From Maritalea mobilis (GTDB lineage: Bacteria; Pseudomonadota; Alphaproteobacteria; Rhodobacterales; Rhodobacteraceae): a DNA stretch of 64,000 bases. The translations under genes were made by a program, and so were the position numbers. Within the stretch, counting starts at the first letter, position 1; each line of letters opens with the position of its first letter. Below the pieces are notes generated by a model that ran no database searches, was not told the origin of the DNA, and was given only the letters and a program-made list of their open reading frames with translations. The stretch lies in assembly GCF_019800885.1 (NCBI RefSeq), contig NZ_JAHVKE010000001.1, positions 620,001 through 684,000 of the forward strand, written 5' to 3'. Of this stretch, positions 41 through 11,104 are shown piece by piece.

Positions 41-288
41 GACTGTCCCTTCGCCCCGCGCCTCGGGCACGGGTTTGTTCGTTTTGCAGGCATTTCGGAC
101 AAAAGCCGGGCGCTCCGCAAGGCCATGCGCGATGGAAACCGACAGCGCCCCTTGCCCTTTCCATGAAAACGGGCTTATTCGGCGGGCATCTGCTTCAATC
201 GCGGGCACTTGACGCATCGGCGCGCGCCCGGGGCTTTTTCGCTCCGACGACGCGCCTGCGCTTGCCCCTTGCGCCAACCGGACCCGAC

Positions 289-1308
289 ATGACCAGCATC
301 GAGAGCTTGAACCCCGACATCCCGCTTTTCGCCCGCACCGGGATCAACCTGGCCTCGGCGGGCCTTGGCGCACGGGCGATCTGGGCCACGAACCAGTTCT
401 TCGCCCCGCTGGAGCGCATGTTGCAGGACAGCGACCCGGTCTTCATCGACGGCAAGTTCGACGATCACGGCAAGTGGATGGATGGCTGGGAAACGCAGCG
501 CCGCCGTGACGGGGGCCATGACATGGCCATCGTCAAGCTGGCCGGTGCGGGACGGATCATCGGCTTTGACGTGGACACGAGCCATTTCACCGGCAACTAC
601 GCGCCCGCCTGCAAGGTCGAGGCCTGTTCCTTCAAGGGCGAGAGGCCGCCGGAAGACCAGCGTTGGGTGACGATCCTGCCGCACAAGCCGCTCGGCGCGT
701 CGGCGCATCACTATTTCAAATGCGACAGTTTCGAAAGCTGGACCCATCTGCGCGTGCATATCTATCCCGATGGCGGCATCGCGCGGCTGCGGGTCTACGG
801 CGTGCCGGAACTGGATCATGCCAATGCAAAAGGCGAGATCGACCTCGCCGCGGCCCTGAATGGCGGCCGCATCCTCGGGTTTTCCGACGCGCATTACGGC
901 GATTACAACCGCCTGCTGGCGCCGGGGCGTGGCATCAACATGGGCGATGGCTGGGAAACGCGCCGCCGGCGCGAACCGGGTTATGACTGGATGATCATCG
1001 CGCTTGGCGCACGGGGCGAGGTTGAGAAATGCGTCATCGATACCGCGCATTTCAAAGGCAACTACCCCGACAGCGCCTCGATCCAGGCCGCCGATCTGCG
1101 CAATTTCGGTGATGGGCTGACCGACGCGCTGATCACCGACTCGATGTTCTGGAAAGATCTCTTGCCCCAGCAAAAGCTGAGCGCGGATGCCGAGCATGCC
1201 TTCCGGGACGAGTTGATCAAACTGGGCCCCGTAACCCATGTGCGGTTCAACATCTTCCCCGATGGCGGCGTGTCTCGCTTGCGCCTCTTTGGCACCACCG
1301 CCCCCTGA
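289..1308 (+). CDS. alc: allantoicase
   Basis: This 339-residue protein should hydrolyse allantoate to ureidoglycolate and urea in purine catabolism in the cytoplasm. It shows the two-fold repeat expected of allantoicase: a DGWETxRRR motif near residue 63 and again near residue 218. Each copy is followed by an aspartate/histidine segment of the type DVDTSHFTGNYAP or VIDTAHFKGNYPD. A longer reading from 163 is open, but its first 42 codons have no family character, so ATG 289 is preferred. The divergent partial gene at the left edge may be another uric-acid enzyme. The TRAP transporter downstream has its own leader, so a shared operon is not evident. Confidence 0.92.
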   Translation: MTSIESLNPDIPLFARTGINLASAGLGARAIWATNQFFAPLERMLQDSDPVFIDGKFDDHGKWMDGWETQRRRDGGHDMAIVKLAGAGRIIGFDVDTSHFTGNYAPACKVEACSFKGERPPEDQRWVTILPHKPLGASAHHYFKCDSFESWTHLRVHIYPDGGIARLRVYGVPELDHANAKGEIDLAAALNGGRILGFSDAHYGDYNRLLAPGRGINMGDGWETRRRREPGYDWMIIALGARGEVEKCVIDTAHFKGNYPDSASIQAADLRNFGDGLTDALITDSMFWKDLLPQQKLSADAEHAFRDELIKLGPVTHVRFNIFPDGGVSRLRLFGTTAP

Positions 1309-1472: not shown

Positions 1473-2486
1473 ATGAAACATCTTGCGACAACCGCCATCG
1501 GGGCGGTTCTTTCCGTATCTTTCGTCGGCGAAGCGCTCGCCACTGAATGGAACGTGTCGGTTTGGGGCCAGCGCCGCGCCTTTACCGAGCATATCCATTA
1601 CCTCGCCGATGCCGTGGCCGAGGCCACCGATGGCGAGTTCACCATGAACATCAGCTATGGTGGCCTGTCGAACAACCGCGAGAACCTCGACGGGATCTCG
1701 ATCGGCGCGTTCGAGATGGCCCAGTTCTGCGCCGGTTACCACCCGGACAAGAACCGCGCGATCACCGTGCTTGAGCTGCCCTTCATGGACGTGCGCAACC
1801 TCGACGAAGAAGTCGCGGTCAGCCATGCCGTCTACGCCCACCCCGCCGTGGCCGAGGAAATGGCCCAGTGGAACGCGCGCATGCTGATGACCAGCCCGAT
1901 GCCGCAATACAACCTCGTCGGCACTGGCGAGCCGCGCGACGAGATCGCCGAGATGGACGGCATGCGCGTGCGCGCCACCGGCGGCCTGGGCGAACTGTTC
2001 TCGGCCATGGGCGCGGTGCCGACCTCCGTGACCTCGTCCGAGGCGTACAGCGCGATGGAAGGCGGCACGGTCGACACCGTGGCGTTTGCGCAGCACGCAC
2101 ACCTGTCCTTCCGCACCATCGACATTGCCGATTGGTGGACGGAAAACCTCAACCCCGGCACGGTGAACTGCCCGGTGGTGGTGAACATCGACGCCTACGA
2201 GGCGCTGTCGGACGAGCATCGCGAGATCCTCGACGCCGCCGTGGATGACGCGATCGACTATTACCTCGAAAACTATGGCGAGTTGCTCGCCCGCTGGGAC
2301 GCGGTTCTGGAGGAGCGTGGCGTCGAGCGCATCACCATCGCCGATGAGCAACTGGCACAGATGGCCGAGGCCGCCGCGCCCATCCACGCGGCATGGATCG
2401 AAGAGATGAACGCCGCCGGCCTGCCGGCGCAGGACCTCTACGACCTTGTCGGCGCGACCCTGCAAGAGGTGCGGTCGGGCAACTGA
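1473..2486 (+). CDS. dctP: TRAP transporter substrate-binding protein, DctP family
   Basis: This is the periplasmic solute receptor (337 residues) of a tripartite ATP-independent transporter. It begins with a signal peptide ending near ALA at residue 23, and the mature domain starts at TEWNVSVWG. The central segment containing DGMRVRATGG has the conserved Arg that normally binds a substrate carboxylate in DctP proteins. A GGGAGGA ribosome site precedes ATG 1473. The membrane genes dctQ and dctM follow on the same strand after a 13-bp stem-loop. The substrate is unknown; an organic acid is the family default. Confidence 0.9.
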   Translation: MKHLATTAIGAVLSVSFVGEALATEWNVSVWGQRRAFTEHIHYLADAVAEATDGEFTMNISYGGLSNNRENLDGISIGAFEMAQFCAGYHPDKNRAITVLELPFMDVRNLDEEVAVSHAVYAHPAVAEEMAQWNARMLMTSPMPQYNLVGTGEPRDEIAEMDGMRVRATGGLGELFSAMGAVPTSVTSSEAYSAMEGGTVDTVAFAQHAHLSFRTIDIADWWTENLNPGTVNCPVVVNIDAYEALSDEHREILDAAVDDAIDYYLENYGELLARWDAVLEERGVERITIADEQLAQMAEAAAPIHAAWIEEMNAAGLPAQDLYDLVGATLQEVRSGN

Positions 2487-2509
2487 GCCCTGCCCTTCCC
2501 AGACCAAAC

Positions 2510-2541
2510 CCACGGCCCGGAGCGTTGCCTCCGGGCCGTGG
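2510..2541 (+). other. GC-rich intergenic stem-loop between dctP and dctQ
   Basis: A perfect 13-bp inverted repeat (2510-2522 with 2529-2541) encloses a 6-nt loop and has no T-tract. Such a hairpin after a binding-protein gene usually protects the upstream message or lowers transcription of the membrane genes. This would allow more DctP than DctQM. The structure is seen directly; the role is inferred. Confidence 0.7.
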
Positions 2542-2565
2542 CCCAAATGAACCGGGCGGTCCCCT

Positions 2566-3198
2566 ATGTCTTCTTCGAATGTCCTCAGCGATGACAGCCT
2601 GCTGTCACGGATCGACCGCGCCGTGCTGCGCGTCGAGGCCGCGCTGAACCTGATCGGCGGTGCCACGATCATCATGCTGGTGCTGCTGGCGGTCTGGAAC
2701 GTGGTGGGGCGCAAGCTCTTCAACGCGCCGGTGCCGGGCTATGTCGACTGGATTTCGCAATTCATGATCCTGTTCGCCTTTCTCGGCTTGTCCTATTGCC
2801 AGCGCGAGGGCGGGCATATCCGCATGGATATCGTCGTAATGCGGCTCAAGGGGCGGCCACTGTGGTTCGCCGAATTCCTGTCGGTCCTGTTCATGCTGAT
2901 CCTGACGACCGGCCTGATCTACGGCAGTTGGCACCATTTCCTGCGCAGCTTCGACTGGGACATGGCGCTGTATTCGCGCGACAGTTCGATCGACATCGGC
3001 CTGCCGCTCTGGCCCGCGAAACTGGTGGTTCCGGCGGCCTTTACCCTGCTCTGGGTGCGGCTTGTGCTGCAACTCTGGGGGTATGGACGCGGGCTGGTCC
3101 AGGGCGGCGATGCCCCGGTCGCGGTCCCGCTGCCCGAAGACCCGATGGAACAGGCCCTGCACGAGGCCGAAACCGTCAGCGGACACGACGAAAGGTAA
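2566..3198 (+). CDS. dctQ: TRAP transporter small permease, DctQ family
   Basis: This is the 210-residue small membrane subunit that pairs with DctM. Four hydrophobic segments are visible, starting around residues 28, 62, 103 and 145. The loop YCQREGGHIRMDI after the second one matches the DctQ pattern in which R-E-x-x-H-I follows the segment. The last 40 residues are hydrophilic. It lies 6 bp before dctM and 79 bp after dctP. Confidence 0.9.
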   Translation: MSSSNVLSDDSLLSRIDRAVLRVEAALNLIGGATIIMLVLLAVWNVVGRKLFNAPVPGYVDWISQFMILFAFLGLSYCQREGGHIRMDIVVMRLKGRPLWFAEFLSVLFMLILTTGLIYGSWHHFLRSFDWDMALYSRDSSIDIGLPLWPAKLVVPAAFTLLWVRLVLQLWGYGRGLVQGGDAPVAVPLPEDPMEQALHEAETVSGHDER

Positions 3199-3204
3199 GG
3201 CGTC

Positions 3205-4641
3205 ATGGATGAGTATATCGACATGCGCGCCCTGCTCGAAGGCGTGGACATCTTCGACGTCTCGCTTTGGCTGTGCGGGCTGCTTCTGATCCTCGTGCTG
3301 ATCGGGGTGCGCGTGGCCTTTGCCGCGGCCTTCGTCGGCATCGTCGGGCTTTGCGTCTTCTTCATGCAGCGGCAGGGCTTTGACCGGGGCCTTGTGACCG
3401 CGCTGAAGCTGGCGGGCCAGGTGCCGCACTCGAAATCCTCGGGCTACGCGCTCAGCCTGATCCCGACCTTCATCGTCATCGGCTATCTCGCCTATTACGC
3501 AGGCCTCACGCGGACGCTGTTCGAGGCTGCGAAACGCTGGGTCGGCTGGGTGCCGGGCGGCTTGGGCGTCTCGACGGTCTTTGCCACCGCGGGCTTCGCC
3601 GCGGTCTCGGGCGCGTCGGTCGCCACCTCGGCCGTTTTCGCGCGCATCGCCATCCCCGAGATGCTGCGTCTTAACTACGACAAGGCCTTTGCCGCGGGCG
3701 TGGTCGCGGCGGGCGGTACCCTGGCCAGCCTCATTCCGCCCTCGGCCATCCTCGTGATCTACGCGATCATCGTCGAGGAGTCGGTGGGCAAACTCCTGCT
3801 CGCGGGGTTCCTGCCAGGCTTCGTCTCGGCGCTGATCTACGCCGGATTGGTGATCGGCTTGGCCAAGTGGAAAAAGAACCTTGGTCCGCCCGTCACTGGC
3901 TACACCTGGGGCGAGCGTTTTGCCTCGCTGCCCGGGGCGATGCCGATCATGTTCGTGATCTTCATCATCATCTTCTCGATCTACTATCGCGGCGAGGACG
4001 GGGCATGGGCCACGCCGACCGAGGCGGGCGCGCTTGGGGCCTTCGTGGTGCTGGTCATGGCGCTGTGGAAGGGCATGAAATGGCGCGAGTTGAAAGGTGC
4101 GCTGATGGAGGCCGCCAAGCTGACGGCCATGATCTTCGCGATGATCTGGGGCGTGCTGATCTTCGTGCGCTTCCTTGGCTTTGCACAACTGCCGGATGTC
4201 TTTGCCAACTTCATCGGCGGGCTGGAGTATTCGCCCTACCTGATCCTGCTGGCCATCCTGCTGGTCTACGTGGTGCTGGGGATGTTCATGGACGCGATCG
4301 GGATGCTGATCCTGACGCTGCCCGTGACCTTCCCCGCGATCATTGCCCTTAACGGCGGGCCTGACGTCACGCGGGAGGCCTCCGCCTTCGGCATGACCGC
4401 CGAGGAATGCGCGATCTGGTTCGGGATTATCGTGGTGAAAATGGCCGAGCTCTGCCTGATCACGCCGCCCATTGGCCTGAACTGCTTCGTCGTCGCGGGC
4501 GTCGCCAAGGACAGCAAACTGCCCATCTCGGTGCAGGATGTTTTCAGGGGCGCATCGCCGTTTTTCGTCGCCGACGTGGTGACCGTTGCGGTCCTGATCG
4601 CCTTCCCCGGCATCGTGCTGTGGCTGCCCTCGCTGATCTAG
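3205..4641 (+). CDS. dctM: TRAP transporter large permease, DctM family
   Basis: This 478-residue polytopic protein is the translocation subunit of the TRAP system and is driven by ion symport. Family marks include the GASVATSAVFARIAIPEM segment near residue 138 and GGTLASLIPPSAILVIYA near residue 170. A second, repeat-related stretch near residue 355 reads MFMDAIGMLILTLPVTFP. Length and hydrophobic profile are normal for DctM. It closes the dctPQM operon; a separate Liv-type operon starts 80 bp downstream. Confidence 0.92.
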   Translation: MDEYIDMRALLEGVDIFDVSLWLCGLLLILVLIGVRVAFAAAFVGIVGLCVFFMQRQGFDRGLVTALKLAGQVPHSKSSGYALSLIPTFIVIGYLAYYAGLTRTLFEAAKRWVGWVPGGLGVSTVFATAGFAAVSGASVATSAVFARIAIPEMLRLNYDKAFAAGVVAAGGTLASLIPPSAILVIYAIIVEESVGKLLLAGFLPGFVSALIYAGLVIGLAKWKKNLGPPVTGYTWGERFASLPGAMPIMFVIFIIIFSIYYRGEDGAWATPTEAGALGAFVVLVMALWKGMKWRELKGALMEAAKLTAMIFAMIWGVLIFVRFLGFAQLPDVFANFIGGLEYSPYLILLAILLVYVVLGMFMDAIGMLILTLPVTFPAIIALNGGPDVTREASAFGMTAEECAIWFGIIVVKMAELCLITPPIGLNCFVVAGVAKDSKLPISVQDVFRGASPFFVADVVTVAVLIAFPGIVLWLPSLI

Positions 4642-4720
4642 GCGAATGCCTCTTTTCACCGAAATTGCGCGTGGTAGTGTCCGCGCGCAACGATCCGAAT
4701 GTCCATTAGGGAGACATCAG

Positions 4721-5920
4721 ATGAAAAAGATCCTTCTTGCCTCGGCCGCGACCGTGGCCATGACCGGCGGCGCGTTTGCCGAGGCCCATGGCGGCGGCGA
4801 AGTGCCGCTCGGCATCCTGCTCAGCTTCACCGGCCCGATCGAAAGCCTCGTGCCGCCGATCGCAGGCGGCGCCGAACTGGCCATCGCCGAAGTCAACGAG
4901 TCGGGCGCCTTCATGGACGGGATGACCGTGACCGCCGTGCGCGCCGACACGTTCTGCTCGGATGCCGCAGGCGCCACCGCCAACGCCGAGCGCGTGATTA
5001 CGACCGAGGGCGTCGTCGGCATCATGGGCTCGGACTGCTCGGGCATGTCCTCCGCGATCCTCGCCAACGTGGCCGTGCCGAACGGCGTTCCGATGATCTC
5101 GCCCGCCTCGACCAGCCCCGCGCTGTCGAGCGCCGAGGATAACGGCCTGTTCTTCCGCACCGCCCCGTCCGACGCACGTCAGGGCGAGGTGCTGGCCGGC
5201 CTGCTGATGGAGCGTGGCATCGAATCGATCGCCATCACCTACACCAACAACGACTACGGCCAGGGTTTTGCCGACGCGTTGCAGGCAGCCTACGAAGAGG
5301 CGGGCGGCGAAGTGACGCTGGTGGCCGCTCACGAAGATGGCCGCGCCGACTATTCGGCAGAAGTGGGCGCCCTTGCCTCGGCCGGCGGCGACGTGCTGGT
5401 GGTGCTGGGTTACGTCGACCAGGGCGGCTCGGGTGTCGTGCAGGCGGCGCTTGATACCGGCGCGTTCGACACCTTCGCCTTCGGCGACGGCATGGTCGGC
5501 GACACGCTGGCCGAGATTTTCGGCGGCGACATCGACGGCAGCTTTGGCACCGCGCCCGGCGCACAGGGCGATGGCGTCGCAATGTACCAAGCCGCGGCAG
5601 AAGGCGGGGATTTCGACAGCACCTCGGTGTTTTCGGCCGAAGCCTATGACGCCGCCGCGCTGCTGATGCTGGCCATGCAGGCCGCAGGCTCGACCGTGGG
5701 CACCGAATACGCCGCGTCGATCATGGACGTGGCCAACGCCCCCGGTGAGCCGATCATGCCCGGCGAACTGGGCCGTGCGCTGGAGATCCTCGCCGAGGGC
5801 GGCGAGATCGACTACCAGGGGGCAACCGGTGTCGAGATGATCGGCGCAGGTGAAGCCGCCGGCTCCTACCGCGTCGTCGAGATGCAGGACGGCGTGCTGG
5901 AAACAGTCGAATATCGCTAA
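4721..5920 (+). CDS. branched-chain amino acid type ABC transporter substrate-binding protein
   Basis: This 399-residue periplasmic binding protein (Peripla_BP_6 / LivJ-LivK type) has a signal peptide of about 20 residues ending at GGAFA. The mature part carries the family pattern PLGILLSFTGPI, then a CSD cysteine pair region and the hinge motif YTNNDYGQGFADA near residue 178. AGGGAGA precedes ATG 4721, which rules out the longer reading from 4646. It heads a complete Liv operon (binding protein, two ATPases, two permeases). The ligand is unknown; amino acids, amides, urea and aromatic acids all occur in this family. Confidence 0.9.
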   Translation: MKKILLASAATVAMTGGAFAEAHGGGEVPLGILLSFTGPIESLVPPIAGGAELAIAEVNESGAFMDGMTVTAVRADTFCSDAAGATANAERVITTEGVVGIMGSDCSGMSSAILANVAVPNGVPMISPASTSPALSSAEDNGLFFRTAPSDARQGEVLAGLLMERGIESIAITYTNNDYGQGFADALQAAYEEAGGEVTLVAAHEDGRADYSAEVGALASAGGDVLVVLGYVDQGGSGVVQAALDTGAFDTFAFGDGMVGDTLAEIFGGDIDGSFGTAPGAQGDGVAMYQAAAEGGDFDSTSVFSAEAYDAAALLMLAMQAAGSTVGTEYAASIMDVANAPGEPIMPGELGRALEILAEGGEIDYQGATGVEMIGAGEAAGSYRVVEMQDGVLETVEYR

Positions 5921-6000: not shown

Positions 6001-6789
6001 ATGATCTCGGTCGAAAACCTGCACAAGCACTTCAGCGGCTTCCATGCCGTGGACGGCGCCAGCCTGACCATCGAAACCGGCTCGATCACCGGGTTGATCG
6101 GGCCGAATGGCGCGGGCAAGTCGACCTTGTTCAATGTCATCGCCGGTGTCCTGCCGCCCACCTCGGGGCGCGTCGTGATGGATGGCGAGGATATCACCGG
6201 CCTTCCGCCCCATATGCTGTTTCACAAGGGCCTTTTGCGGACCTTCCAGATCGCGCACGAGTTTTCCTCGATGAGTTGCCGCGAGAACCTGATGATGGTG
6301 CCCGCCGGCCAGTCGGGCGAAAGCCTGTGGAACACGTGGTTCGGCCGCAAACGCATCGCCGACGAGGAACGCGCGCTCAAGGCCAAGGCCGACGAGGTGC
6401 TGGAGTTCCTGACCATCGAACATCTCGCCGATCACCCCGCAGGCATGGTCTCGGGCGGGCAGAAGAAGCTGTTGGAACTGGGCCGCACGATGATGGTGGA
6501 CGCCAAGATCGTCTTCCTGGACGAGGTCGGCGCGGGCGTGAACCGGACCCTTCTGAACACCATCGGCGACGCGATCCTGCGCCTGAATCAGGAACGCGGC
6601 TACACCTTCTGTGTGATCGAGCACGACATGGATTTCATCGGCCGCCTTTGCGACCCGGTCATCTGCATGGCCGAGGGCCGCGTGCTGGCCGAGGGGTCAA
6701 TCGCCGAGATCAAGGCCAACGAACAGGTGATCGAGGCCTACCTGGGCACGGGCCTCAAGAACAAGGACAAGCTGGAGGCGGGGGCATGA
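6001..6789 (+). CDS. livG: Liv-type ABC transporter ATP-binding protein LivG
   Basis: This 262-residue ATPase has a Walker A GPNGAGKST near residue 36, a signature VSGGQKKLLELGR near residue 150, and a switch histidine in CVIEHDMDF. The Walker B region reads KIVFLDEVGAG, with valine where most LivG proteins have proline (LDEP); the catalytic glutamate is present. The C-terminal LivG-type extension after IAEIKANEQVIEAYLG is present. It overlaps livF by ATGA. Confidence 0.92.
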   Translation: MISVENLHKHFSGFHAVDGASLTIETGSITGLIGPNGAGKSTLFNVIAGVLPPTSGRVVMDGEDITGLPPHMLFHKGLLRTFQIAHEFSSMSCRENLMMVPAGQSGESLWNTWFGRKRIADEERALKAKADEVLEFLTIEHLADHPAGMVSGGQKKLLELGRTMMVDAKIVFLDEVGAGVNRTLLNTIGDAILRLNQERGYTFCVIEHDMDFIGRLCDPVICMAEGRVLAEGSIAEIKANEQVIEAYLGTGLKNKDKLEAGA

Positions 6790-7616
6790 GCGGCGGAAGC
6801 GGCTACGAGGATCGCGGCAACAACGACCGTTCCGTCACCGGAACGCCGGTCGATCACATGGGTGACCCGGTCCCTGCGGGCGGCCATGCCGAACGGGTCG
6901 AGGGCGCGGACGCCTTCCTGATCGGCGAGGCGATGACCGGCGGCTATGGCGGCGGCGCCGACATCCTGCATGACTGCACCATCGCGGTGAACCCCGGCGA
7001 GATCGCCGTGATCGTGGGCCCGAACGGTGCCGGCAAATCCACCGCGATGAAGGCGGTCTTCGGCATGCTGAACCTGCGCAAGGGGCGCGTGGTTCTCGAT
7101 GGCGAGGATATCACCCACCTCACCCCGCAGGCGCGCGTGCAGAAAGGCATGGGCTTCGTGCCGCAGACGTCGAACATCTTCACCTCGATGACGGTGCAGG
7201 AAAACCTGGAGATGGGGGCCTTCACGCGCCGCGACGATTTCCGCGAGACGATGGAGCAGGTCTATGACCTGTTTCCCATCCTGCGCGAGAAACGCGACCA
7301 GGCGGCGGGCGAATTGTCGGGCGGTCAGCGCCAGCAGGTCGCCGTGGGGCGCGCGCTGATGACAAAGCCCAAGGTGCTGATGCTGGACGAACCCACCGCG
7401 GGCGTCTCGCCCATCGTGATGGACGAGCTCTTCGACCGGATCATCGAAGTCAGCCGCACCGGCATTCCCATCCTGATGGTGGAGCAGAACGCCCGCCAGG
7501 CGCTTGAGATCGCCGACCGGGGCTATGTGCTGGTGCAGGGCGCGAACGCCCATACCGGCACCGGCAAGGACCTGCTGGCCGATCCCGACGTGCGCCAGAG
7601 CTTCCTCGGGGGCTGA
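6786..7616 (+). CDS. livF: Liv-type ABC transporter ATP-binding protein LivF with N-terminal extension
   Basis: This is the second ATPase of the transporter, 276 residues. Walker A GPNGAGKST (about residue 79), signature LSGGQRQQVAVGRAL and Walker B VLMLDEPTAGVSP are intact. The ABC fold begins near residue 44 (FLIGEAMTGGYG). The first 43 residues form a hydrophilic glycine/aspartate-rich tail not usual for LivF. The ATGA overlap with livG supports the long start, although an internal ATG at 6933 would give a short but incomplete domain. Confidence 0.9.
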   Translation: MSGGSGYEDRGNNDRSVTGTPVDHMGDPVPAGGHAERVEGADAFLIGEAMTGGYGGGADILHDCTIAVNPGEIAVIVGPNGAGKSTAMKAVFGMLNLRKGRVVLDGEDITHLTPQARVQKGMGFVPQTSNIFTSMTVQENLEMGAFTRRDDFRETMEQVYDLFPILREKRDQAAGELSGGQRQQVAVGRALMTKPKVLMLDEPTAGVSPIVMDELFDRIIEVSRTGIPILMVEQNARQALEIADRGYVLVQGANAHTGTGKDLLADPDVRQSFLGG

Positions 7617-7621
7617 CCGGA

Positions 7622-7993
7622 ATGCACGCCCCTGCCCTCGCCCTGTCGATCCTGCTCGCCGCGCCGCCTGCGCTGGCCCAGCCCGTGGCCTGCGCCTTCA
7701 CGCTGGTCTGCGCGCCCGAGATCGACTGCGAGGCGCATGAGGGCATTCCGTTCGACCTGTCCCATACCGATGGCACCTACAGTTTCGAAGCCGACGGCAC
7801 CGTCCTGACGGGGCAACCGTTGGACGGGTTCGATGCGCGCGGCCTCGCCCTTGCGTTCCAAACCGACGCTGAAACGATGCTCTTCACCCTGACACCGGGC
7901 GATGAAGGCGTTCTGACCCGCCACAGGATCGGGCCGGGCGGTCGCCTCAGCGTTGCCAGTTTCATCGGCCCCTGCGTGAGAGGATACTCATGA
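7622..7993 (+). CDS. small secreted four-cysteine protein, copy 1 of 3
   Basis: No recognised family. The 123-residue product has a signal peptide (cleavage expected at ALA-QP, residue 19) and a mature part of about 104 residues. Cysteines at 24, 30, 36 and 118 give the pattern C-x5-C-x5-C with a last cysteine close to the C-terminus. The next two genes share this pattern, so the three are probably paralogues. It begins 5 bp after livF and overlaps the second copy by ATGA. A periplasmic accessory role for the Liv transporter is suggested only by position. Disulfide bonding is likely but inferred. Confidence 0.75.
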   Translation: MHAPALALSILLAAPPALAQPVACAFTLVCAPEIDCEAHEGIPFDLSHTDGTYSFEADGTVLTGQPLDGFDARGLALAFQTDAETMLFTLTPGDEGVLTRHRIGPGGRLSVASFIGPCVRGYS

Positions 7994-8424
7994 CCCGCCT
8001 GTTTCTTGCCGCCGCCCTCTCCGCCCTGTCGGTCGCGTCCGTTTCCGCGCAGGCGCCGGGCCAGGAGATCACCTGCGATCTGTCCGTGATCTGCCTTGGC
8101 GTCGCGCCATGCCAGGATTGGGAACAAACCATCACCGTCGTCGCGCCCGAGGACGAGGCGGGCGATTGGACCGTCGACTGGGCCGGCGAGCGCCGCGCCG
8201 GCTATACGCTGGTGGCGGATATCCCCGCCCCCGAAGGCTCGCTGCGCCCGGCGCGTATCCGAACGCTGGTCCATGCCGCCGACGATACGCAAGCGGTGCA
8301 GATCGTGACCCTCTCCGATATCGGCCATATCGCTGTGACGCTGCACCAGCCGCATCTGACACCGCCCTCCGTCACCGCCGGGGGCGTGTGCCCCGCGCTG
8401 ATCCCCGAGGGGGCCGATCAATGA
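7990..8424 (+). CDS. small secreted four-cysteine protein, copy 2 of 3
   Basis: No recognised family. It is 144 residues with a signal peptide ending near residue 20 (VSA-QAP). Cysteines at 29, 35 and 41 repeat the C-x5-C-x5-C spacing of its neighbours (CDLSVICLGVAPC), and a fourth cysteine lies at 134 in GGVC. The body is predicted mostly beta by its alternating pattern. It overlaps both the first and the third copy by ATGA, so the three are probably translated in a coupled series inside the liv operon. Confidence 0.75.
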   Translation: MTRLFLAAALSALSVASVSAQAPGQEITCDLSVICLGVAPCQDWEQTITVVAPEDEAGDWTVDWAGERRAGYTLVADIPAPEGSLRPARIRTLVHAADDTQAVQIVTLSDIGHIAVTLHQPHLTPPSVTAGGVCPALIPEGADQ

Positions 8425-8786
8425 AACCCGTCGCCCTGCCCTTCGCCCTTGCGCTTTGCGCGGCAACGGCGCAGGCCGAGCCGTGGGACTGCGAGTTGAC
8501 GGTGTCCTGCGGCATCGGCGCGGCCTGTGAAGCGGCGGCGCTGCGCCTTTCGCTTCTGCCCGCCGATCACGCGGGCGATTTGTTCGTCACGGGCCTTGGC
8601 GCGGATATCCCGGTCGCCCGCCTGTCGGCTGGCCCCTCTGCGCCACGCCACTATGCCGGGCATGGCGGGGATATCGCCCTGCTTTTGACAATCGAGGCTG
8701 ACACGCGCACGCGCCTCACCCTGCATGGCGGGGACGAGCGCGGCGCGGCGACCAGCTACTTCGGAACATGCGAGGAGTTGACCTGA
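8421..8786 (+). CDS. small secreted four-cysteine protein, copy 3 of 3
   Basis: No recognised family. It is 121 residues with a signal peptide cleaved near residue 19 (AQA-EP). Mature cysteines are at 24, 30, 36 (CELTVSCGIGAAC) and 117 (FGTC), the same pattern as the two upstream copies. An additional cysteine sits inside the signal peptide. The stop codon abuts the livH start codon directly. The trio therefore splits the ATPase pair from the permease pair of the transporter operon. Confidence 0.75.
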   Translation: MKPVALPFALALCAATAQAEPWDCELTVSCGIGAACEAAALRLSLLPADHAGDLFVTGLGADIPVARLSAGPSAPRHYAGHGGDIALLLTIEADTRTRLTLHGGDERGAATSYFGTCEELT

Positions 8787-9797
8787 ATGGATTTCCTCAA
8801 CGCCCTGGTGGCGCTTGCCAATTTCGTCCTCATCCCCGCCACCGCCTATGGCGCGCAACTGGCGCTTGGGGCGCTTGGGGTGACGCTGATCTACGGCATC
8901 CTGCGATTTTCCAACTTTGCCCATGGCGACACCATGGCCTTCGGCACGATGGTGGTGATCCTCGTGACCTGGTGGTTGCAATCGCTGGGGATCTCGTTGG
9001 GGCCGCTTCCTACCGCGCTGCTGGCCCTGCCTGTCGGGATCGCGGTGACGGGCCTTCTGCTGATCGGCACGGACAAGGTGGTCTACCGCTTCTACCGCCA
9101 GCAAAAGGCCAAGCCGATCATCTACGTCATCGCGTCGCTCGGCGTGATGTTCGTGATGAACGGGATCGTGCGCTTCATCATCGGCGTGGATGACCAACGC
9201 TTTGCCGATGGCGAGCGCTTCATCATCTCGGCCCGCGATTTCCGCGAGATGACTGGCCTGGACGAAGGGCTGGCCTTTCGCACCAGCCAGGGCCTGACCA
9301 TTGTCGTGGCGATCATCGCCGTGGCGCTGCTGTTCTGGTTCCTCAACCGTACGCGGACGGGCAAGTCCATGCGGGCCTTCTCGGACAACGAGGACCTGGC
9401 GCTGCTGTCGGGGATCAACCCCGAACGCGTCGTGCTGATCACCTGGCTGATCGTGGCGGCGCTGGCGACGACGGCGGGGGTTCTCTACGGCCTCGACAAG
9501 AGCTTCAAGCCCTTCACCTATTTCCAGCTGCTGCTGCCGATCTTCGCCTCGGCGATCGTGGGCGGCCTGGGCAACCCGCTTGGCGCGATCCTCGGCGGGT
9601 TCGTCATCGCCTATTCCGAGGTCGCCGTCACCTACGCCTTCCGCAAGGTGGTGGGCTATCTCCTGCCCGAAAGCCTAGAGCCCGAGGGGCTGCTGCAACT
9701 CCTGTCCACCGACTACAAGTTCGCGGTCAGCTTCGGCATCCTGCTGATCGTCCTCTTGTTCAGACCAACCGGCATCATGAAGGGGAAATCGGTATGA
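8787..9797 (+). CDS. livH: Liv-type ABC transporter permease LivH
   Basis: This 336-residue inner-membrane permease belongs to the BPD_transp_2 family. The N-terminal GALGVTLIYGILRFSNFAHG segment (residues about 31-50) is the LivH hallmark, with asparagine and phenylalanine before the cytoplasmic loop. The EAA-like loop around residue 200-215 reads GKSMRAFSDNEDLALLSGIN. The C-terminus ends with FRPTGIMKGK as in most LivH proteins. It overlaps livM by ATGA. Confidence 0.92.
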   Translation: MDFLNALVALANFVLIPATAYGAQLALGALGVTLIYGILRFSNFAHGDTMAFGTMVVILVTWWLQSLGISLGPLPTALLALPVGIAVTGLLLIGTDKVVYRFYRQQKAKPIIYVIASLGVMFVMNGIVRFIIGVDDQRFADGERFIISARDFREMTGLDEGLAFRTSQGLTIVVAIIAVALLFWFLNRTRTGKSMRAFSDNEDLALLSGINPERVVLITWLIVAALATTAGVLYGLDKSFKPFTYFQLLLPIFASAIVGGLGNPLGAILGGFVIAYSEVAVTYAFRKVVGYLLPESLEPEGLLQLLSTDYKFAVSFGILLIVLLFRPTGIMKGKSV

Positions 9798-11104
9798 GCG
9801 GAGCCGTGAACATCCGGGCCGTCGCCCTCTTTGCCCTTGTCGCCATCCTGTTCATCGGGACGGGGATCGTGCAGTCGTGGAATACCTCGCTCACGATCCT
9901 GAACATGGGCCTGATCAGCGCGATCATGGCGCTCGGCGTGAATATCCAGTGGGGATATGCGGGCCTGTTCAACGTGGGCGTCATGGGCTTTCTGGCGCTT
10001 GGGGGGCTGGCCACGGTGCTGGTGTCGATGGACCCGGTGGGCGAGGCCTGGTCCGCAGGTGGCCTGGGTGTGATCCTCGGGCTGACCCTGGGGGCCGCGA
10101 CGATCATCGCGGCGATCCTGACGTATCAGAAGATGCCCGCAGGCCGGATGCGCGGCATCGCCTTGCTGGTGATCCTTGTCGGCGGGTTCTTCCTTTTCCG
10201 GGGTGTTTTCGATGCGGGCGTCGAGGCGGTTGAATCCGTCGATCCCTCGGTCAGCGGCTACCTGGGCGGGCTTGGCCTGCCGGTGCTGGTCGCCTGGCCT
10301 GTCGGCGGCCTGCTGGCGGCTGGGGCGGCCTGGATCATCGGCAAGACGGCGCTTGGCCTGCGGTCCGATTACCTGGCCATCGCGACCCTCGGCATCGCCG
10401 AGATCATCATCGCCGTTCTCAAGAACGAGGACTGGCTGGCGCGGGGCGTGAAGAACGTGATCGGCATTCCGCGTCCTGTTCCTTACGAGGTCGATCTGCA
10501 AGCCTCCGAAAGCTTCCAGAATTTCGCCGCTTCCATGGGCTCGGACCCGGTGGGCGCCTCGACCATCACGGTGAAACTGCTTTATGCCGCGCTGTTCGTG
10601 ACGGTGCTCCTGGTCCTGATCTGGCTGAGCCAGAAGGCGCTGAACTCGCCCTGGGGTCGCATGATGCGCGCCATCCGCGACAACGAGGTCGCCGCCGAGG
10701 CGATGGGCAAGGACGTCACGCGGCGCCACTTGCAGGTCTTCATCCTGGGCTCGGCCGTGATCGGGATCGCGGGCGCCATGATGACCACGCTGGACAGCCA
10801 GCTTGTCCCCTCGTCCTACCAGCCGCTGCGCTTCACCTTCCTGATCTGGGTGATGGTGATAGTGGGCGGGTCCGGCAACAACTGGGGAGCCGTGCTGGGC
10901 GGGTTCCTGATCTGGTGGCTGTGGGTGATGGTCGAACCCATCGGCCTGTGGCTGATGCAGGGGATTACCGCGGGAATGGATGAGGGCTCGGCCCTGCGCG
11001 AGCATCTCCTCGGATCGGCGGCGCATATGCGCCTGATGACGATGGGCATCATCCTGCTGCTGGTTCTGCGGTTCAGCCCCAAGGGCCTGATCCCCGAGCG
11101 CTGA
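9794..11104 (+). CDS. livM: Liv-type ABC transporter permease LivM
   Basis: This is the second permease, 436 residues and on the long side for LivM. It has the GYAGLFNVGVMGFLALGG motif near residue 53. The conserved cytoplasmic loop WGRMMRAIRDNEVAAEAMGKD is near residue 293, and the end reads LRFSPKGLIPER. About 60 extra residues, including two hydrophobic stretches around residues 118-190, lie between the first helices and the ALGLRSDYLAIATLG core. It is the last gene of the operon; an intrinsic terminator follows 22 bp downstream. Confidence 0.92.
   Translation: MSGAVNIRAVALFALVAILFIGTGIVQSWNTSLTILNMGLISAIMALGVNIQWGYAGLFNVGVMGFLALGGLATVLVSMDPVGEAWSAGGLGVILGLTLGAATIIAAILTYQKMPAGRMRGIALLVILVGGFFLFRGVFDAGVEAVESVDPSVSGYLGGLGLPVLVAWPVGGLLAAGAAWIIGKTALGLRSDYLAIATLGIAEIIIAVLKNEDWLARGVKNVIGIPRPVPYEVDLQASESFQNFAASMGSDPVGASTITVKLLYAALFVTVLLVLIWLSQKALNSPWGRMMRAIRDNEVAAEAMGKDVTRRHLQVFILGSAVIGIAGAMMTTLDSQLVPSSYQPLRFTFLIWVMVIVGGSGNNWGAVLGGFLIWWLWVMVEPIGLWLMQGITAGMDEGSALREHLLGSAAHMRLMTMGIILLLVLRFSPKGLIPER

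Follow-up and report, generated by a model that had tools for sequence, protein, structure and literature searches.

Undescribed exported four-cysteine proteins inserted in variable number into the Liv importer operon of Rhodobacteraceae

Three small exported proteins in an importer operon

The small proteins P1, P2 and P3, encoded between livF and livH in a 64,000-nucleotide stretch of Maritalea mobilis DNA (hereafter referred to as the window), belong to an undescribed family, and the operon that carries them is a standard importer operon with undescribed, variable exported proteins added to it. The usual account of an ABC importer is a fixed inventory of parts, namely a binding protein, permeases and ATPases. 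Here, a well-conserved importer of a large and mostly marine bacterial family, the Rhodobacteraceae, carries fast-evolving exported proteins, predicted to be β-barrels, in more than 100 genera.

As shown in Table 1, LivK, LivG, LivF, LivH and LivM are all encoded in the window, which therefore has the full set known from the E. coli LivJ/K-H-M-G-F operons of HAAT importers. LivK, LivH and LivM match Liv profiles, but none of the three reaches the curated cut-off of its E. coli model, and LivK falls far short of it, so that the substrate is not settled; the solved chain nearest to LivK is 4n0q, Leu/Ile/Val-binding protein homolog 3. The operon of the window and its relatives differs from the E. 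coli operon by the insertion of zero to seven small exported proteins, and we know of no description of a Liv operon with such proteins between livF and livH. The liv operon is immediately preceded by an allantoicase gene and the TRAP transporter genes dctPQM. Allantoicase is also found beside the importer in three other genomes (G001, a congener; G002; G015), just the first of which has dctPQM as well, and the proximity of allantoicase may or may not be relevant to the ligand of the importer.

The P1 gene starts 5 bp downstream of the livF stop, the P1/P2 and P2/P3 junctions are both ATGA overlaps, and livH starts immediately after the P3 stop. The reading frames, cysteine positions, overlaps and livF–livH placement given in the initial annotation proved exact when the sequence was re-read. 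Each protein starts with a signal peptide of the Sec type, which ends in an AxA-like site and is followed by a C-x5-C-x5-C motif; a single further cysteine lies near the C-terminus. An extra cysteine of P3, C13, lies within the signal peptide. Since the cleavage sites are of the AxA type and the first cysteine is not at +1, P1–P3 look like soluble exported proteins rather than lipoproteins.

Table 1. Positions of the genes and loci discussed in the text
Feature	Location	Strand	Description	Basis or remark
P1	window 7622..7993	+	123 aa, exported four-Cys protein of the predicted β-barrel family, Cys 24/30/36/118	ORF
P2	window 7990..8424	+	144 aa, exported four-Cys protein of the predicted β-barrel family, Cys 29/35/41/134	ORF
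P3	window 8421..8786	+	121 aa, exported four-Cys protein of the predicted β-barrel family, Cys 24/30/36/117	ORF
Allantoicase	window 163-1308		upstream of the liv operon	
dctPQM	window 1473-4641		TRAP transporter	
livK	window 4718..5920	+	LivK-type periplasmic substrate-binding protein (HAAT class)	PRK15404 profile 1.6e-25, under curated cut-off; nearest solved chain 4n0q
livG	window 6001..6789	+	ATPase	ORF; syntenic in relatives
livF	window 6786..7616	+	ATPase	ORF; start set at its ATGA overlap with livG; orthologue is left border of the slot
livH	window 8787..9797	+	permease	Liv profile match; orthologue is right border of the slot
livM	window 9794..11104	+	permease	Liv profile match; syntenic in relatives
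Split dctP match, G001	L184:2857-3868		match in two frames	
Split livH match, G001	L184:10177-11185		match in two frames	
Seven-member operon, G363	L207:5359-9563		six members after livF, one before livM	
Copies away from liv, G185	L209:6512-7814		three tandem copies	
Copies away from liv, G089	L150:378-5282		dctPQM-P2-P3-echA	
Isolated two-Cys protein, G684	L296:65-487	-	E 5.6e-5	other family of the class
Second slot type	L089:662-1036		motif NRWFW[IV]E	livH-strand coordinates
Second slot type	L294:4223-4609		motif NRWFW[IV]E	livH-strand coordinates
F-x-I-x-x-x-Q-F subgroup	L137:1763-2131			
F-x-I-x-x-x-Q-F subgroup	L231:4600-4998			
F-x-I-x-x-x-Q-F subgroup	L262:4663-4998			
F-x-I-x-x-x-Q-F subgroup	L280:4622-4963			
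F-x-I-x-x-x-Q-F subgroup	L294:4636-4995			

P1, P2 and P3 are paralogues of one undescribed family

The common ancestry of the three proteins, which had been proposed from their cysteine pattern, was assessed with profiles from which the group of the protein in question had been left out. These profiles recovered P1, P2 and P3 with E values of 1.7e-13, 2e-9 and 1.2e-16 at full length and of 2.5e-9, 2.8e-5 and 2.2e-13 with the mature parts, respectively, far better than the reversed-sequence controls for the mature parts (0.55 or worse). Although identity to P3 in the family alignment is just 23% for P1 and 22% for P2, these matches indicate that P1, P2 and P3 are true paralogues of one family. 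In an alignment of 37 homologues, three cysteines never vary (C24, C30 and C117 in P3 numbering), and the conservation of C36 and G115 is at least 90%, despite a mean column identity of just 24%, which argues that the cysteine pattern is not a product of chance.

The initial annotation knew of no family with this arrangement, and our searches agree. P1, P2 and P3 gave no significant match in Pfam or NCBIfam, the 37 homologues gave nothing beyond isolated chance-level matches in Pfam, PADLOC and PHROGs, and the family profile gave nothing significant among the PDB sequences. Close relatives of P2 were not found in the named genomes, nor were plasmid-borne relatives of P3 by single-sequence tblastn. 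No paper on proteins of this type was found in the literature library that was searched.

The family is located almost exclusively in liv operons

We measured the livF–livH junction at the livH orthologues of 89 genomes, with most genera represented by a single genome. It was nearly closed (4–15 bp) in some and, in most of the others, occupied by one to three small exported proteins. Pooling two slightly overlapping collections gave 168 junctions, of which 57 were 15 bp or shorter, 21 were 16–150 bp and 85 exceeded 300 bp. Of the 85 inserts longer than 300 bp, 82 encode a small protein that begins like a signal peptide and has a C-terminal cysteine; on the opposite strand, such a protein was found in 8 of the 85.

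A profile search made with no reference to liv found family members in 120 of 397 genomes of the Rhodobacteraceae (396 genera). Positions relative to livH were compared for 80 of the further genomes, with 101 matches, and 100 of these lie within the orthologous liv operon, 98 of them 0–1.6 kb upstream of livH and on its strand. The remaining three lie between livH and livM (G363), beside a livH gene (G398) and elsewhere in the genome (G185); G398 was rejected as an exception to the liv link, since the contig ends within its livH. Among 80 named species, the profile found members around livH in 40, and all of the matches (about 55) are in the operon and on the liv strand. The livG–livF slot is also occupied in G009, G248 and Shimia abyssi (loci including L208 and L254), and the livH–livM slot in G363; since several slots are used, the association is with the operon as a whole rather than with a particular insertion site. 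Members are coupled by ATGA overlaps or short gaps. Beyond the family, a search of 289 genomes from the class, which included few Rhodobacteraceae, yielded just one weak match. In G684, which belongs to another family of the class, an isolated two-cysteine protein, a weak relative, lies on a contig stretch with no liv genes in view.

Instead of homologues scattered apart from Liv operons, we thus found a near-exclusive liv location, which bears out that part of the proposed coupling to the transporter; the coupling is not obligatory, as two genomes carry copies apart from liv. G185, a 99% complete genome, lacks a livH orthologue at E <= 1e-60 and carries three family members in tandem near genes that we read from their sequences as aroG and a GlxA-type regulator. 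(The third of these copies seems to have an N-terminal membrane anchor that is not cleaved.) In G089, the order dctPQM-P2-P3-echA equals the window neighbourhood minus the liv genes, and the liv operon, with a livF–livH gap of 9 bp, is on a different contig. These two cases show that the family can persist without co-location and, once, without the LivK-G-F-H-M importer.

Strong P2 matches were at first seen only in G000, G001 and G089, all of which have dctPQM. A rule that ties P2 to these TRAP genes was rejected, as the P2 clade includes proteins of G248, G270, G441 and Nioella that, in a comparison covering the liv genes around them, lie inside liv operons.

Conversely, the importer is present without family members in about half of the liv operons, even inside one genus. 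As 78 of the 168 livF–livH junctions are 150 bp or shorter, the family is at most an optional auxiliary of the importer and not a core subunit.

Old paralogues with rapid divergence and variable copy number

Between the window and its congener G001, the dN/dS values of P1, P2 and P3 are 0.31, 0.28 and 0.47, respectively, and those of the tested neighbouring genes 0.05–0.12; P1–P3 diverge three to six times faster than their neighbours. The livH gene was left out of this set, as its G001 match is split. Both this match and that of dctP in G001 are split in two frames, probably by sequencing errors or decay. The values of 0.28–0.47 between two congeners show purifying selection on P1–P3.

The copy number per liv operon ranges from 0 to 7, with 0, 1 or 2 copies in most relatives. 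The maximum is found in G363, with six members after livF, two of them weak matches, and one before livM; the livG–livF interval of this genome is 1.8 kb. On a LivG/F/H/M tree of 77 species, presence of the insert requires at least 18 changes, 13 of which are forced by well-supported branches, and Shimia, Aliiroseovarius and Actibacterium each have carrier and non-carrier species.

The initial annotation had taken the three genes for a triplication. A recent tandem triplication was rejected, as P1, P2 and P3 group in separate clades, each with members of other genera; these paralogues are old and arose before the genus did. G441 has P1-P2-P3 in identical order before livH, the placement of its P1 being the least certain. 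These separate multi-genus clades and the order kept in G441 indicate that the window triplet is an old arrangement, parts of which were lost by relatives in or near the genus: P3 alone is kept in Roseicyclus Amp-Y-6 and Boseongicola H5, and P1 and P3 in Roseibacterium SDUM158016.

A predicted eight-stranded barrel with two putative disulfides

AlphaFold2 models of P3 (pLDDT 88) and P2 (pLDDT 87), whose less confident parts are chiefly the tail and the signal peptide, have eight strands each, in matching order. P2 and P3 are therefore predicted to be the same eight-stranded β-barrel, in a comparison that covers these two proteins and whose input alignments contain common sequences, so that the models are not fully independent. 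By the initial annotation, unrelated predicted folds would have told against a transporter-linked triplication; for this pair, the predicted folds are not unrelated.

In Foldseek searches against the PDB, the likeness to eight-stranded barrels, lipocalin-like ones among them, was weak (best E values 0.014 and 0.016; TM about 0.4), with lipocalins, the NHBA C-terminal domain, Cap15 and DUF4251 among the top matches. These lipocalin-like or up-and-down barrels have eight antiparallel strands in common with the predicted P2 and P3 folds. They differ in that no match reached E <= 0.001, TM is about 0.4, there is no sequence relationship and the four-cysteine pattern is not common to them; the lipocalin G-x-W motif was absent near the first strand of P1, P2 and P3 on reading of the sequences. 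The periplasmic lysozyme inhibitors MliC/PliC are likewise small exported eight-stranded barrels, with a disulfide. They resemble the predicted P2/P3 fold in this respect, but none of the 37 members matched them in Pfam at E <= 1, and they were not among the 50 best fold matches.

Among 118 insert proteins, 82 have three N-terminal cysteines and one C-terminal cysteine, and 14 have one of each. Another eight were scored as two-plus-one; on reading, three of these (L062, L064 and L267) are three-plus-one proteins clipped by the counting window, and five (L087, L129, L228, L244 and L262) are one-plus-one proteins with an additional signal-peptide cysteine. Cysteines 2 and 3 hence disappear jointly, while cysteines 1 and 4 stay, a pattern from which we infer two intramolecular disulfides, C1–C4 and C2–C3. 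The P3 model places C24 in the first strand and C117 in the last, with C30 and C36 on either side of the first turn.

Possible roles of the family

The reading that we prefer, tentatively and at somewhat less than an even chance, is that P1–P3 assist the LivKHMGF importer as soluble auxiliary proteins of the periplasm, where they would probably tune ligand capture or docking. Translational coupling along livF-P1-P2-P3-livH would have them made in step with the importer, and Sec would export them to the periplasm, where they would be soluble eight-stranded β-barrels with the C1–C4 disulfide joining the first and last strands and the C2–C3 disulfide in the β1–β2 turn. They may then engage LivK or LivHM from the periplasmic side, adjusting ligand capture or LivK docking, and their fast divergence and copy-number change would match the importer of each species to its nutrients, while the core importer would work without them. 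This reading draws on the near-exclusive location in several slots of the liv operon, the coupling, the purifying selection, the old P1, P2 and P3 clades and the gene order of G441. Counted against it are G185, G089, the memberless liv operons and the Liv proteins themselves, in which no residue tracked member presence in 736 columns and 13 independent pairs, a comparison of low power. If tuning is true, the array would help explain differences in amino-acid uptake among close relatives. We consider it unlikely that the proteins are interchangeable periplasmic auxiliary subunits, such that zero to seven exchangeable barrels, and not the binding protein alone, set the ligand range of the importer.

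Small proteins that alter the activity, specificity or turnover of transporters include AcrZ, SgrT, MgtS, MgtR, MntS and LucB; they are generally shorter than 50 aa by definition, and the examples are mostly membrane-embedded or cytoplasmic (PMC10710835). P1–P3 and their relatives resemble them as small proteins tied to one transporter, the modulation being hypothetical here, and differ from them as exported disulfide barrels (predicted) of about 100 aa in variable tandem arrays.

The main rival, doubtful in our view although the strongest of the alternatives, is an independent envelope function, such as small-ligand binding or enzyme inhibition, that has nothing to do with amino-acid import, the liv operon providing steady expression and translational coupling. 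G185, where three copies occur with no livH orthologue, speaks for it best, and it would also accommodate the two copies that G089 keeps apart from liv, the memberless half of the liv operons and the failure to find covarying Liv residues. Such a function would, however, predict many loci over more than 100 genera, whereas nearly all members are in one operon, in three slots.

Other ABC permeases of the inner membrane have been reported to serve as a gate for contact-dependent toxins, bacteriocins or phage DNA-entry proteins. P1–P3 and their relatives might screen LivHM or LivK from such agents on the periplasmic side and diversify in an arms race, a shielding role that we regard as improbable. 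Fast divergence beside slow transporter genes, arrays that reach seven tandem members, 13 or more gains or losses among 77 species and the near-exclusive pairing with one transporter would all suit it, but whole-gene dN/dS is below 0.5, matches to defence and phage families were no better than chance, and no toxin or immunity gene was seen alongside. If shielding is true, the presence of the family points to a transporter that toxins or phages target. Pairs of carrier and non-carrier species inside one genus offer a ready-made test of either reading, tuning or shielding.

It is very improbable that the proteins are redox or folding helpers of LivK, acting by disulfide exchange or in a mixed-disulfide complex with the binding protein, a variant put forward in the initial annotation: exported four-cysteine proteins are indeed encoded beside a LivK that itself has cysteines, but they have no CXXC motif, and both the joint loss of cysteines 2 and 3 with 1 and 4 kept and the positions of the cysteines in the P3 model fit two structural intramolecular disulfides.

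Other small exported proteins

A second, seemingly unrelated type of small exported protein was seen in the livF–livH slot at two loci, L089 and L294, with the motif NRWFW[IV]E and two C-terminal cysteines. A further subgroup has F-x-I-x-x-x-Q-F and PAEPILMGDxRGFW-like motifs, with just two cysteines in some of the proteins, and is found at the five loci listed in Table 1; it was present in 1 of 91 nearby genomes.
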